Source: Butyrivibrio sp. AE3004 (GTDB lineage Bacteria > Bacillota > Clostridia > Lachnospirales > Lachnospiraceae). From it: DNA of 64,000 bases. Position 1 is the first letter of the stretch, and each line of letters opens with the position of its first letter. The DNA lies in NCBI RefSeq assembly GCF_000703165.1, contig NZ_JNLQ01000002.1, forward strand, positions 2,418,001 to 2,482,000, given 5' to 3'. Shown here piece by piece: positions 38,265-44,531 of the stretch. The notes under the pieces were generated by a model. That model had not been told where the DNA came from, ran no database searches, and saw only the letters and a program-made list of their open reading frames with translations. Position numbers and translations under genes: made by a program.

Positions 38265-38680
38265 AGCATTCCTTTTAAATAACAAAAATCTACATAATCC
38301 GTTATATATTATCACATATTGATTTAAGAACAAAGAGAAGCTTGCGACTCTTTATTTGGCGATTCTAAAATTTTTTTATTTTTGCTATAAAGTTTTTTAG
38401 CTTGTTGTCGATATACTTATTGCAGAACAAAAAGGACAATCTCCTTTTCTTTATGACCGGTATGGCGTCCCCACCCATACCGGTCTCCTCCCATTAATAC
38501 GGGAATATTTATTTTTTTCCAATTTAAAACCATTTAGAAATATATTATTAAAGGATTATAAATATTCGGTTTTTAGTATTTAGCCAGCAAATAAAGGCGT
38601 AAAATACAATTAGAAATTATTTTTTATTGCAACACTTTTCATTGTTCTTTTGTAGATTGATGAAACCAAGGAGGTCCATT
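38265..38680. other. Intergenic region with two tandem hairpins
   Basis: Divergent spacer before the chemoreceptor gene. It holds AAAAGGA/TCCTTTT (38430-38449) and GACCGGTATGG/CCATACCGGTC (38455-38485), the latter a perfect 11-bp stem. The rest is AT-rich with no gene. Confidence 0.55.
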
Positions 38681-40435
38681 ATGAAAAACGGAAAAAAATT
38701 CAGTATGACTGCTGTCCTGATGTCATTGATTGTACCTCTTATGGGCGTTCTTATCTTTGCAACTATATTCTTCAGTTCAGAGTTATTAAGCATTGCCAAT
38801 TCCGACGAAGTGCTTTACTATGATCACCTTTTTACAATTTCCGAAAACCTTCTGAATGCAGACCGTGATCTGTATCAGGCAATGCTTGCAGGCACACGTT
38901 ATATTGCCTATAAAGAATACCTGGATGAAAATGCGCTTAGCGATTACAGAAGCTCTTTAAACGAAAACAAACAACAGGCTCTTGAACGAGTAGATGCAGC
39001 AGTCGCAATTACAAAAAATGACAGTTCCATCTGGACTGAGACAAAAGCTTCTGATGGAGCAAATTTCCAAACACTGTATCAGGAATTCGAAGACGCTTTT
39101 AAATCCTGGGAAGGAACTTATGATTTTTCTGCAGGTGATGGCGATATAGAGCAATTTGACAAGCAGTTTGAAATCGCCCGTGAGTATTTGAGTGAGATGT
39201 CAGAAATAACCGAAGATTGGGCAAAAGTACAGATCACTCACCAGCTTTCCGAAATAACCCGCAAAATTATATTACTCGCTATAATATTCGCAGTTATCAT
39301 TGTTGTACTCATTATTTTTGCAGTAATAATTCTAAAAATTATTATGAGAAGTATCCGTGAGCTTTCCACTGATGTGGAAAGAATTTCCGAAGGAGATTTT
39401 GTAACCAAGATAAAAAGCAGCAGTCCTATTTCAGAGTTTTCACATATCTCTGATGCCGTTGAATCCATGCGTCATGAACTCAGAAATGCTTTGGCAAAGG
39501 TTATTGATCACGCCGGTACGGTTAACGACAAAGCTGAGCTTACAAAATCCAACATATCCAATTCTCAGAAAACTACTACCGATATAAGCTCCGCTGTTAA
39601 CGATCTTGCACAGGGTGCAACCGCAATGGCCGAGGATGTACAAAATACTTCGACCATAACCATCAATATGGGTACATCCGTTGACTTTGTACGCGACTCA
39701 GCAAGCAGCAATCTTGAAAAAGGCAAAAAGGTATATGACGAGTCCAACAAAGTTAAGGATCAGCTTGAGCAGATAAAAATCCAGGACCAGAAAACCGACG
39801 AAATTGCTGGTCAGGTGGCTGAATCAGTTAATGAAACCGCAACTGTTGTTCAGCAGATCACTACTGCAGCTGAGGGTATTATTTCCATTTCAAGCCAGAC
39901 CAATCTCCTTGCACTTAACGCTTCCATCGAGGCAGCAAGAGCCGGTGAAGCCGGAAAAGGCTTTGCGGTTGTTGCCGACAACATCAAGAACCTTGCGGAA
40001 GAGAGTAACCATCTTGCAGGTGAGATTACCGGAATGCTCACAACCATTACATCTTATTCCAATAAAAACAAGGAGCTTACGGAAAGCATTAAACAAGCCA
40101 CAGCAAACGAAGCCACCGCTCTTGAAGAAATGAGTGCCTCATTTGACGAAATGCTTGCTCTATTGGAAGAGACAGAGGAAGGAAACAAGCAGATTGTTGA
40201 ACTTGTCGAGACTATGAATTCGGATAAGGAAAATATCCTTAACTCCGTAGAGTCACTTTCAAGTATTTCAGAAGAAAATGCTGCATCCACTGAAGAAACC
40301 AGTGCTTCTTTGACACAGCTTGACAGCACAATGGAATCGATCGTAGATCAGGCTGTTGATCTTCAGAAAATTGCGGAAGAGCTTACTGATAGTGTCAAAT
40401 TCTTTAAGGTTGAGCTTCCGAATAACAAGAGCTGA
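38681..40435 (+). CDS. Methyl-accepting chemotaxis protein
   Basis: 584 residues. Membrane segments near 9-31 and 194-218 bracket an extracytoplasmic ligand domain of about 160 residues that looks helical. A HAMP region follows (about 220-270), then the conserved signalling hairpin with [20 protein letters not shown] near 400. Such receptors control the CheA kinase and so flagellar motion. AAGGAGG lies 6 nt before the ATG at 38681. The ligand is unknown. The gene precedes tRNA-Arg and the HD-GYP/FapA pair. No che operon is nearby except the CheY/CheX pair at 58-59 kb. Confidence 0.94.
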
Positions 40436-40861: not shown

Positions 40862-42004
40862 TTACTGGCTTAAGAGGCCTCCGCCTCCGGCTGCTATGTT
40901 TGCCTCTTCTTCTGCTTTTGTACGGGCAACCATCGCTTCCATATCCGGTCTCGCAATATCAAAGCATGCAAGCATCTTGGTAGAGAATATTCCACTCTCT
41001 CCGTTCTTGATCATTTCATAAGCTTTACTTGGCGCAAATGCTGATTTATATACTCGGTCACTTACAAGTGCATCATAAACATCCGCAAGTGATGTAAGCT
41101 GTGCAGCTATGGATATTTCTTCACCCTTGAGTCCATCAGGATATCCTTTGCCATCATATTTTTCATGATGATGTCTGCAAATATCATAACTGACTTCAAG
41201 GTATTCCTTGTCCTGTAAGTCTGCCAGCATTTTTACAATCTCACATCCTCTGGTGGTATGTGATTTCATAATATCGAATTCATCTGCCGTAAGTCTTCCG
41301 GGTTTTAACAGAATTGCATCCGGAACTGTGATCTTACCGATATCATGCATCGCACTGGCATTGGTTATAACTTCTATCTTATGTGGCGTAAGTCCGAATT
41401 CAGGATAGTTTCTCATTGCCACATTCGCCAGAATCTGAACAAATCCCTTAATTCTCTTTAAGTGATATCCGGACTCCAGATTTCTGAACTCAACAATGGT
41501 ACAGATAGTATCAATTATTCTGCTATTTGTTTCTCTAAGTCTCTCTTCCTGTTTCTTAAGAACCAGGTATTGCTTTTTCAAAACCTTTGTCTGCTCATTG
41601 ACCTTCTGCTCAAGCTCCTGCCTGCTCATATTCAGGTCTATCGCTCGTTTTACCCTATGCTTTACGATAACAGTATCAAAAGGTTTGTGGATTACATCAC
41701 TTGCCCCGTTTTCATAGCATTTTCTCTCGGTTTCAGGTGAACTGTCTGCGGTTATCATCAGAACCGGAATCTTATCGGGAATCTTGTGTTTGAAGAGTTC
41801 TTCCAAAAGCCTGAAGCCATCCATTTCAGGCATAACAATATCAAGGAGAATGGCGGATATCCCACTTCTTTGATGCGCTATGATTTCAAGCGCCTTCCTT
41901 CCGTTCTCAGCCTCCAAAATATTATAATCATCCTTGAAAATTTCGCTAAGAATGCCTCTATTTATTTCTGTATCATCTACAATCAGAATACTCTTTTCAG
42001 CCAC
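40862..42004 (-). CDS. Response regulator with HD-GYP phosphodiesterase domain
   Basis: 380 residues. The receiver domain (about 1-120) has ILIVDDTEI, phospho-acceptor Asp in LLDIVMP and Lys in IHKPFD. A coiled-coil linker of about 30 residues leads to an HD domain (about 160-350) with MHDIGKI, RHHHEKYDGKGYPDG and LADVYDAL. This is the HD-GYP layout, so c-di-GMP hydrolysis is likely. The GTG at 42004 has AAGGAGC 7 nt upstream and overlaps the FapA stop closely, so the two are translationally coupled. The tail is Glu/Ala/Gly-rich. It probably acts downstream of an unlinked kinase. Confidence 0.9.
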   Translation of the reverse strand: MAEKSILIVDDTEINRGILSEIFKDDYNILEAENGRKALEIIAHQRSGISAILLDIVMPEMDGFRLLEELFKHKIPDKIPVLMITADSSPETERKCYENGASDVIHKPFDTVIVKHRVKRAIDLNMSRQELEQKVNEQTKVLKKQYLVLKKQEERLRETNSRIIDTICTIVEFRNLESGYHLKRIKGFVQILANVAMRNYPEFGLTPHKIEVITNASAMHDIGKITVPDAILLKPGRLTADEFDIMKSHTTRGCEIVKMLADLQDKEYLEVSYDICRHHHEKYDGKGYPDGLKGEEISIAAQLTSLADVYDALVSDRVYKSAFAPSKAYEMIKNGESGIFSTKMLACFDIARPDMEAMVARTKAEEEANIAAGGGGLLSQ

Positions 42005-42008
42005 CGTT

Positions 42009-44531
42009 TTAGCTCCTTGCTATGGTTTTCTCGCCATCAAGCATTACCAGGTTTCCATCCCTTCCGGTAAAGGTAATGCCTCTCGAAGTCTCCATTGTGT
42101 CATGCACTCTTAACACTCTGTTTCCGATTTTTACACAGGTACCGCTAAATATAAGCCTTGATACAATAACCTTCGCATCTTTAACCGATTCCATCTCCTT
42201 TTCGATGTTCTTTTTTCTCATATTCAGCTTTTCAAGCTCTGCCTCTTTGATTGCCGATTCGGCATTTACTTTTATCTTAAGCTGCAGTGCCTGTTTGTTT
42301 GTATTATCATTAAAAGCCGAAAGCTTAGCTCTTTGCTGCTCATAAACTTTAAGCTCCGCATAAATACGGCTGATATTCCTGAGAAGTGTCTGGTACTCGT
42401 AATCCAGTTCCTCAGTAATACCGGTTCTTATGACTGTATCCTTGATGGTTTTGCTTCCAAGAACCGCTGTTTCAAGACCGCGAAGCGAAGTTACAACACC
42501 TCCGCTTATTAGCCCCTTTTCACCGAGCATGAGCACTTTCCCCTCAGCAGAAACATTACAGTTCATACAGTCATTGGACACCAGATCCCCCTTACATTTC
42601 ACATTGGTGGTATCCAAATGTGCCGCAGCTACGAGCCCTCCTGCAGAAACGGATGATCTGTCATTAACATTTCCTACAATGCTTTTTCTAACGACAACTC
42701 TTCCACTTGCATGTATATCAGCACAGGATACGCTTCCGTCGACTACAACATCACCCTTTGCCTGAATATAAGCGTTATCAACATCGCCTCTTACCCAAAT
42801 GGTTCCGTCATAGGTTATTTTTTCTTTCACATTGATAAGAGAGTCATAAATCTTTGCCTTATCAATCCTTATCTCTCCGTTTTGAATCCTTCCTACTCCC
42901 GCAAGGGACGAAACGTAGGTCTGTTTATCACTCAAAAGCATGAAACCCTGTCCCTTTAGAATAGGTTTTCCTTTTCCTGCTTTTGCTTTAATAATCTTTC
43001 CTGTTACATCAAATCCATCCTCACCCGTAGTTGCAGGATGGTATATAGCAAGCTTGTCGCCAAGCTTTACCTCGTCAAATACCTTTACGTTTGAAAAATC
43101 GGCACTTTCACCGTTACTCATATCCGGAAGTATTTCTTCACTTAGCTTGAGAAGGTATTCATAATAGCCATCCTTGCCATCCATAGGATTTTTTCCCTGG
43201 GCAACGAGAGTTTTAACTCCGAATTTCTTATTCTCAATCATCTCTTCGATGGCTTTTCTGCTTACTCCGCGTCTGACTCTCGCTGTATACAAAAGCTTTA
43301 CAACTTTTTCCAGATTATAAGAAGCACCTTTGACACCTAGTGGCAATGTAAAATAGCACTTCATCTTGTCTTGCGAAATATCAATAAGTCTGCCTTCCTC
43401 TGTCTGAAGGAACTGCCAGGCTTTAACTTCTTCATCAGCAGGCTTATCCATCTCTTCCTGAAGCTGTCCGGAAAACAATTTGCTGAGATTACTCGGAAGA
43501 GTTTTTCCTTCAGAAAGCCATTTGCGCATGACTCTCATCTCCTGGGCAGGATGAACCATACTCTTGTACAAATTGACATCCAGGTTTTCCTCAATGCCTT
43601 TTCTGATCTCACGCATCTGATCAGCTCTGTATAGCGGTTTTGCGTAAGGTGTCACATCTATCTGATGTTCAAGTCCAAGCCTAAGCTCTCTCATCTGCTT
43701 CCAGCTATAAGCTTCATCAGCATATATTGATACATCCAGATTCTGCTCCAGTCCCTTTCTCACTTCATGCATGCATTCACCACGCATGCCAAAAAGGAAA
43801 TACCGGTTGATATCCTCTATTCCCTCCTGCTTTGCTTTTCTTATCTGTTCAAGCTGTTCTGCATCAAAATTCTTTTTTACGTACTCTGAAATATCTATTT
43901 TTTCATTATATGCTATATGTATTTGTTCCAACGTGGATGCATCCTTGGTCCTGATGGTTCTCTCATCAAATTCAAGTCCGTCCTCAAGGCTCTCACGAAT
44001 AACGCGCATCTTCATATAAGGCATATCTATACTTGCATATTGGGAAATATCGGTTCCGTTCTGTAAGCCCAGGCGAATTTCCTGCATCTGGAGCCAGTTA
44101 AATCTTGGATCCTGATAAAAAATTACAGGTACATCCGCCTTAAGTCCAAGTCTTATCTGTTTCATCTGATCCGAGAAATATTCAGGTCTTGCATATTCGG
44201 AAACATCAAGTTTTTCAGAAAGTCCCTCTCTGATTTCCGCAAGCTGCATTATATCAAAACCGGCTTCACGATAAGCAGACATATCTATTCCGCTCTGAAG
44301 CTCAAGTCTGATTTCTTCCATCTCATTCCACGGTGTTTCCGGTTTTGCATACAAGCTCACATCCACGCCGGTGGATAGCCCCTTTCTGATTTCAGCAAGC
44401 TGGTAGATATTGTAATGCTTATCTCTGTACTCTTCAGCATTGCCACCCTGCTTTTTTATCAGTAGAAGCTCATTTGATATTAAATCAGGCTGATATAAAC
44501 TTTTGTCCTCACCGGCAGTAACTACAGCCAT
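42009..44531 (-). CDS. fapA: FapA (DUF342) protein with N-terminal 26-residue repeat array
   Basis: 840 residues. The C-terminal half (about 400-840) is the FapA/DUF342 region with the beta-helical stretch GDVVVDGSVSCADI, the YDGTIWVRGDV unit and a coiled coil near 690-740. FapA has been linked to flagellar assembly and surface polysaccharide. Residues 37-349 are 12 near-perfect 26-residue units of the form [DE]-x-x-F-x-x-x-Q-M-x-E-I-R-x-G-L-x-x-x-x-D-V-S-x-Y-A (one unit is 27), with a further degenerate unit before them. I know no FapA with this array; it may bind a partner or the cell envelope. GAGGGGC lies before the ATG. It precedes and is coupled to the HD-GYP gene. Confidence 0.88.
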   Translation of the reverse strand: MAVVTAGEDKSLYQPDLISNELLLIKKQGGNAEEYRDKHYNIYQLAEIRKGLSTGVDVSLYAKPETPWNEMEEIRLELQSGIDMSAYREAGFDIMQLAEIREGLSEKLDVSEYARPEYFSDQMKQIRLGLKADVPVIFYQDPRFNWLQMQEIRLGLQNGTDISQYASIDMPYMKMRVIRESLEDGLEFDERTIRTKDASTLEQIHIAYNEKIDISEYVKKNFDAEQLEQIRKAKQEGIEDINRYFLFGMRGECMHEVRKGLEQNLDVSIYADEAYSWKQMRELRLGLEHQIDVTPYAKPLYRADQMREIRKGIEENLDVNLYKSMVHPAQEMRVMRKWLSEGKTLPSNLSKLFSGQLQEEMDKPADEEVKAWQFLQTEEGRLIDISQDKMKCYFTLPLGVKGASYNLEKVVKLLYTARVRRGVSRKAIEEMIENKKFGVKTLVAQGKNPMDGKDGYYEYLLKLSEEILPDMSNGESADFSNVKVFDEVKLGDKLAIYHPATTGEDGFDVTGKIIKAKAGKGKPILKGQGFMLLSDKQTYVSSLAGVGRIQNGEIRIDKAKIYDSLINVKEKITYDGTIWVRGDVDNAYIQAKGDVVVDGSVSCADIHASGRVVVRKSIVGNVNDRSSVSAGGLVAAAHLDTTNVKCKGDLVSNDCMNCNVSAEGKVLMLGEKGLISGGVVTSLRGLETAVLGSKTIKDTVIRTGITEELDYEYQTLLRNISRIYAELKVYEQQRAKLSAFNDNTNKQALQLKIKVNAESAIKEAELEKLNMRKKNIEKEMESVKDAKVIVSRLIFSGTCVKIGNRVLRVHDTMETSRGITFTGRDGNLVMLDGEKTIARS

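Follow-up and report, generated by a model that had tools for sequence, protein, structure and literature searches.

A second, lineage-specific FapA of Lachnospiraceae that carries an N-terminal 26-residue repeat array and is often encoded beside an HD-GYP gene

The stretch of Butyrivibrio sp. AE3004 DNA analyzed here, referred to as the window, comprises 64,000 nucleotides (contig NZ_JNLQ01000002.1, positions 2,418,001 to 2,482,000), and contains on its reverse strand an open reading frame (ORF) in which an array of 26-residue repeats is fused to both domains of FapA (DUF342), followed by the ORF of a response regulator of the HD-GYP class. The features of the two genes are listed below by position in the window, with residue numbers of the respective protein.

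42009..44531, minus strand: array-FapA fusion ORF, 840 amino acids (ORF list and Pfam domains)
43464..44480, minus strand: the array (residues 18-356), made up of a cap and 12 units of 26 residues, one of them with 27; predicted to fold as an alpha solenoid
43776..44012, minus strand: three irregular central units, residues 174-252
42885..43385, minus strand: FapA_N domain PF20250, residues 383-549 (Pfam)
42084..42818, minus strand: FapA beta-solenoid domain PF03961, residues 572-816 (Pfam and predicted structure)
42183..42413, minus strand: predicted long helix pair inside the FapA domain, residues 707-783 (structure model)
42013..42018, minus strand: AAGGAG, Shine-Dalgarno-like, for the HD-GYP gene, within the end of the fusion ORF (by eye)
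40862..42004, minus strand: response regulator/HD-GYP ORF, 380 amino acids, GTG start
41663..41989, minus strand: receiver domain PF00072 of the HD-GYP protein, residues 6-114 (Pfam)
41003..41437, minus strand: HD domain PF13487 with HD and GYP motifs, residues 190-334 of the HD-GYP protein

The fusion is placed in the FapA family by both of its domain scores, namely 126.3 bits for FapA_N (Pfam cut-off 27) and 138 bits for the beta-solenoid domain (Pfam cut-off 31), and FapA_N was matched at E<=0.001 in all 57 rows of alignment A2, which had been chosen beforehand for having both FapA parts. Beta strands were predicted at residues 571-703 in the AlphaFold2 model, and the FapA part, of which the domain membership is shown and the fold predicted, probably forms a scaffold of the beta-solenoid type that includes a helical hairpin. 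The same genome encodes a canonical FapA of 527 amino acids that has no array, which bears out the statement of the initial annotation that FapA normally lacks one; the window ORF is thus a second, lineage-specific FapA of Lachnospiraceae. The canonical fapA adjoins a gene for a fliA-type sigma factor and cheA/W/C/D-like genes (named by eye). In our usage, such a flagellar-gene neighborhood is the typical context of FapA and no part of the domain definition. According to PMC11607428, fapA of Borrelia (BB0267) shares an operon with flgV, flhG and flhB, and in other lineages the gene belongs to a sub-module that includes the flagellar sigma factor; PMC6877527 describes binding of dephosphorylated EIIA-Glc by Vibrio FapA. 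When 21 array-less FapA loci (20 from congeners and that of the same genome) were examined as a control, 14 were found beside a fliA homologue, seven (L212-L215, L221, L224, L225) had none of the tested neighbors, and none had an HD-GYP neighbor or an array. The window fusion lies between an mtnA-like gene (named by eye) and the HD-GYP gene. It has in common with Vibrio vulnificus FapA and Borrelia BB0267 the two FapA domains, PF20250 and PF03961, and is unlike known FapA in the array in front, the HD-GYP gene beside it and the absence of the flagellar neighbors named in PMC11607428. It is to be noted that minC- and minD-like genes (by eye) lie near the canonical fapA (L064, 563-2131), the minC-like gene being a third, sub-threshold match to the FapA model.

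The repeat itself was evident from the protein sequence, since residues 37-349 matched themselves with 26.8% identity at an offset of 26, 26.1% at 52 and 20.4% at 78, against a best value of 13.8% in the shuffled control (offsets 5-79, 1000 shuffles). A simple sequence pattern picked up nine units, and the register between these was filled in by eye, giving unit starts at residues 44, 70, 96, 122, 148, 174, 200, 226 (27 residues), 253, 279, 305 and 331 (weak), preceded by a degenerate cap at residues 18-43. The initial annotation had placed twelve 26-residue units at residues 37-349; its ORF and its twelve units stand, but one unit has 27 residues and the array with its cap totals residues 18-356. 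The units at 174, 200 and 226 deviate from the consensus, and at residues 171-176 the motif P-[YF]-[ML]-K-M-R is conserved in 21 of the 22 rows of alignment A1. The repeat consensus, QMREIRLGLEAGIDVSKYAKPGYDAD, was obtained from 477 gapless units, which were cut at the nine regular positions of the 57 proteins in the alignment with the irregular positions excluded, and its best-kept positions are Y18 (92%), D14 (88%) and R6 (86%). Tandem Repeats Finder detected no repeat in the DNA, so that the periodicity exists at the protein level only, and a DNA tandem repeat as the source of the array was ruled out. AlphaFold2 modelled the array as an alpha solenoid, with a pLDDT of 83.3 for the full model and a pLDDT of 89.5 and pTM of 0.74 for the array modelled alone; the array is accordingly predicted to be an acidic alpha solenoid, its length fixed within the genus. 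The period test, together with the pattern of helices and turns, ruled out low complexity as well as a coiled coil, in support of the solenoid, not of low complexity, that the initial annotation had suggested.

Across the window array, no model of Pfam, NCBIfam or PHROG scored over its cut-off or better than E 0.1, so that no named model in these collections fits the repeat. Whole-protein scores did pass in two array-only proteins, by DUF6188 in L065 (35.2 versus 27.1) and by Organ_specific in L185 (24.4 versus 22.5), with no single stretch passing in either; we take these to be the summed chance matches of a repeat. TIGR02167 is a bacterial surface protein 26-residue repeat; the window array is like it in unit length only, and it was not among the NCBIfam matches to the window protein up to E=1. 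Searching solved structures by sequence returned weak matches only, all to the FapA part, and Foldseek found no fold relative at E<=0.001 for either the full model or the array. Judged by titles and abstract openings, with subscription papers outside the scope, neither the fusion nor the repeat is named in the literature searched. The repeat is thus without a model in the copies of Pfam, NCBIfam and PHROG searched, yet is predicted to be a regular alpha solenoid.

Within the genus, the length of the array and the order of its units are fixed. Its length was 338-344 residues in all 30 Butyrivibrio loci (the window and 29 congeners) and in the gut contig L067. Units of the same index had a mean identity of 54% across the 57 proteins, compared to 26% for units of different index within one protein, and in 591 of 728 tests the best match was a unit of equal index; the array units are orthologous by position within the genus. 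In the distant congeners (L016-L034), identity to the window was 50-54% in the array, 37-44% in FapA_N and 29-39% in the FapA beta part, to which the values of L014 (57, 53 and 44%, in the same order) conform. In the 17 fusion loci of other genera, mostly nine units were matched, with ten in two loci and three to six in three.

A search of the own genome at E<=0.01, as the initial annotation had envisaged, revealed the 26-residue unit in no further protein. The nearest named relative of the fusion is a protein of Butyrivibrio sp. LC3010 (87% identical), and the best 80 of 354 array relatives were taken as the collection of named loci. The fusion was present in 35 of the 36 congeners searched, with only its first part in the contig-cut G029; the single congener without it, G015, has an assembly that is 81% complete. 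In a sample of 392 genomes of the order, the array was detected at E<=1e-5 in 46. All 18 Butyrivibrio among these had fusions with both FapA parts (L150-L167); as for the remaining 28, 15 genomes from nine genera contained 17 fusion loci, ten had an array without FapA, and three (L194-L196) gave no unit match at the cut-off of the unit profile. The fusion therefore spans 10 genera of Lachnospiraceae in the order sample, and was not seen outside this family in either that sample or a phylum sample of 398 genomes; the four array genomes of the order from outside the family are all among those without the fusion. The phylum sample produced five array matches, comprising the own genome, one congener, the array-only G087 and two genomes from beyond the order, whose frames are 178-274 amino acids long. 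The plasmid search yielded two Finegoldia records with at least 34 and at least 38 array places, and the search of a phage collection located the array in three human faecal contigs. These unnamed proteins share the 26-residue unit by tblastn and unit profile; those of Finegoldia have no FapA domain, unlike the window fusion, while in faecal contig MT836110 (L067) a single open frame does encode the array and the beginning of FapA_N. L067 leaves room for a fusion outside the family. The contig is filed as phage; it carries the array, FapA_N and, further on, an HD-GYP-like frame (L067, 4812-7913), and looks bacterial. Among viral contigs, seven stretches fit a repeat pattern and none was confirmed. 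The array proteins without FapA on Finegoldia plasmids and gut contigs rule out that the array is restricted to FapA, and the proposal that the repeat is a FapA feature was not upheld in this respect.

The second gene of the locus begins 4 nucleotides past the stop codon of the fusion, confirming the HD-GYP partner in the same translational unit that had been noted at the outset, and its conservation as a neighbor extends across genera. Among the named loci, an HD-GYP gene is found downstream of the fusion in 31 of 80, counting L149, in which FapA has a broken frame and HD-GYP lies farther away. Of the other 49 loci, four are cut by a contig end (L089, L108, L119, L148) and 45 belong to one Butyrivibrio clade, one of these (L122) having too little DNA to judge linkage. 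In other genera, HD-GYP was located downstream on the same strand in 16 of 17 fusion loci, with -86 to 37 nucleotides between the open frames (in L199 and L208 as short frames); the sole unlinked locus, L210, has HD-GYP elsewhere in its genome. Other neighbors of the window served to gauge plain synteny. Of the 80 named loci, 20 have the mtnA-like gene near the fusion, and 19 of these 20 also have HD-GYP. In the fusion loci of other genera (17 in all), by contrast, none of the mtnA-, etfA-, etfB- and methyltransferase-like neighbors (named by eye) was seen, and the HD-GYP link there thus exceeds inherited gene order. Synteny as the sole explanation of the adjacency is partly true in Butyrivibrio and is ruled out for other genera (0/17 versus 16/17); this recount made the linkage argument weaker inside Butyrivibrio and stronger in other genera. 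In the unlinked clade, an HD-GYP orthologue (66-68% identical) was kept in all 11 genomes searched. The 12 HD-GYP loci of these genomes (G036 has two) have a methyltransferase-like gene downstream in nine, an etfA-like gene upstream in ten, an mtnA-like gene in five, and directly upstream of HD-GYP in all 12 a thiolase-like gene that the window does not have. Because these surroundings resemble those of the window, it seems that the array-FapA gene, rather than HD-GYP, has relocated there. Butyrivibrio sp. AE2015 (L114/L134) and Su6 (L115/L137) have two array-FapA genes each, none of them beside HD-GYP.

The active-site motifs of the linked HD-GYP proteins are intact, the residues of the HD, HH and GYP motifs (H220, D221, H279, G287, Y288 and P289) being invariant in all 44 with frames over 330 amino acids, and the phospho-acceptor of the window protein is D55. 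Among known systems the protein comes closest to regulators of the RpfG/NosR type, with which it shares a receiver and an HD domain bearing the HD and GYP motifs, while its match to the NosR family model (160.6 bits) is under the 400-bit cut-off and its gene, unlike theirs, adjoins array-FapA.

The fixed order and conservation of its units suggest that the N-terminal array would be a docking surface for one specific protein partner, and a second FapA with a docking solenoid is very probably what the fusion represents. Because the adjacency is conserved, the likeliest partner would be the response-regulator/HD-GYP enzyme encoded in its operon, although its role as direct partner of the array is a tentative assignment, well short of even chance. 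The fusion may position this cyclic di-GMP (c-di-GMP) phosphodiesterase, or HD-GYP may regulate the fusion, at the site of FapA, which by analogy to V. vulnificus FapA could be the flagellar pole. Taken as a whole, this reading of a second FapA with a docking solenoid and an HD-GYP partner placed or regulated where FapA sits, possibly at the flagellar pole, comes close to an even chance. Its narrower form, in which the array is a dedicated solenoid that holds the phosphodiesterase on the FapA scaffold and so makes a local c-di-GMP switch at a flagellar or polar site, is unlikely. The adjacency of fusion and HD-GYP does suggest an undescribed link of c-di-GMP signaling with a protein scaffold. 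Of the link between c-di-GMP control and an assembly machine that was envisaged in the initial annotation, the first half is reasonable, as the HD-GYP neighbor is conserved across genera, but 'assembly machine' is here no more than a family name, since the fusion lies outside the flagellar/chemotaxis operon. If true, the local switch would be an undescribed signaling module of Lachnospiraceae on an undescribed repeat fold. The loci also point to a module of two genes, for an HD-GYP enzyme and a FapA scaffold, that recurs in bacteria of the rumen and gut. To our knowledge, the control of c-di-GMP and of flagella has been little studied in these bacteria. Moreover, as a single genome encodes FapA both with and without the array, what FapA does, which is still vague, becomes open to testing by removal of the genes.

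Several observations weigh against the docking of HD-GYP on a conserved array at a flagellar site. The array is not clearly ahead of the FapA part in conservation among the close congeners L006-L013 (in L007, identity to the window is 86, 84 and 90% for array, FapA_N and FapA beta part), and in L015 (42, 47 and 39%) it is not the top region. The array also occurs without FapA or HD-GYP, and its function need therefore not concern either. The fusion is not beside fliA, che or flhFG and is outside the flagellar operon. The mtnA-like gene, too, is a common neighbor in Butyrivibrio, which makes the HD-GYP adjacency there partly plain synteny. The unlinked Butyrivibrio clade of 45 rows is well separated (SH-aLRT 100, quick tree) and linkage was lost in it; the claimed pairing, although kept across genera, is to this extent qualified, as it is by close HD-GYP relatives without the fusion. 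Fourteen loci were picked from strong HD-GYP matches not known as linked, in a search that scored four candidates per genome and whose counts are thus lower bounds; none of the 14 had FapA or an array nearby, and the closest of these relatives shares 56% identity with the HD-GYP protein of the window. In the HD-GYP tree, from which four near-identical rows were left out, linked and unlinked proteins are mixed, with eight linkage changes, at least five of them forced. Nine of the 44 linked proteins lack the receiver Asp, which the other 35 have. Strict interdependence of HD-GYP and array is ruled out by the stand-alone HD-GYP relatives; the dependence is at most one-sided.

The alternative that survives best is that the array docks another protein, such as a polar landmark, chemotaxis or motor protein, HD-GYP being a mere operon neighbor, and we regard it as a credible possibility, though not a probable one. 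It would accommodate the HD-GYP relatives without fusion and the survival of the fusion after loss of linkage, and FapA of V. vulnificus binds EIIA-Glc and is reportedly recruited by HubP. It explains less well that HD-GYP is the only tested window neighbor still found next to the fusion in other genera, and that both genes are retained in all 11 unlinked genomes searched. Alternatively, the second FapA may have left the flagellum to serve a c-di-GMP-controlled surface, biofilm or cell-shape scaffold, which we consider rather unlikely. Such a role would suit the position of the fusion outside the fliA/che-like operon, unlike that of the canonical copy, the additional match of MinC_C to the FapA part in 15 of the 57 array-FapA proteins of alignment A2, and the general use of beta-solenoid scaffolds in the cell envelope. 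Flagellin, however, was found in all 33 fusion genomes of the order sample and in 209 of its 359 others (242 of 392 overall), a comparison that ignores kinship, 18 of the 33 being of one genus. It is very improbable that the array came to FapA as a mobile repeat module of plasmids or other elements and is merely tolerated there, with no specific role; array proteins without FapA do occur many times on gut contigs and on both Finegoldia plasmids, but length and unit order are fixed in the genus and the array outconserves the FapA part in distant congeners. A nucleic-acid-binding superhelix like that of TAL effectors was judged the least likely of all.

Some further observations were made on array proteins and on the surroundings of the locus. 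The Finegoldia magna plasmids NC_010371.1 (L065) and NZ_CP085956.1 (L066) are mobilizable and encode small array proteins, two of which, in L066, lie directly 3' of genes of the DpnD/PcfM family. In one human faecal contig (L069, 4902-6188), array units are fused to a BspA-type leucine-rich repeat region. Lastly, a methyl-accepting chemotaxis-like gene (by eye) is located at window positions 38627-40435, convergent to the HD-GYP gene.
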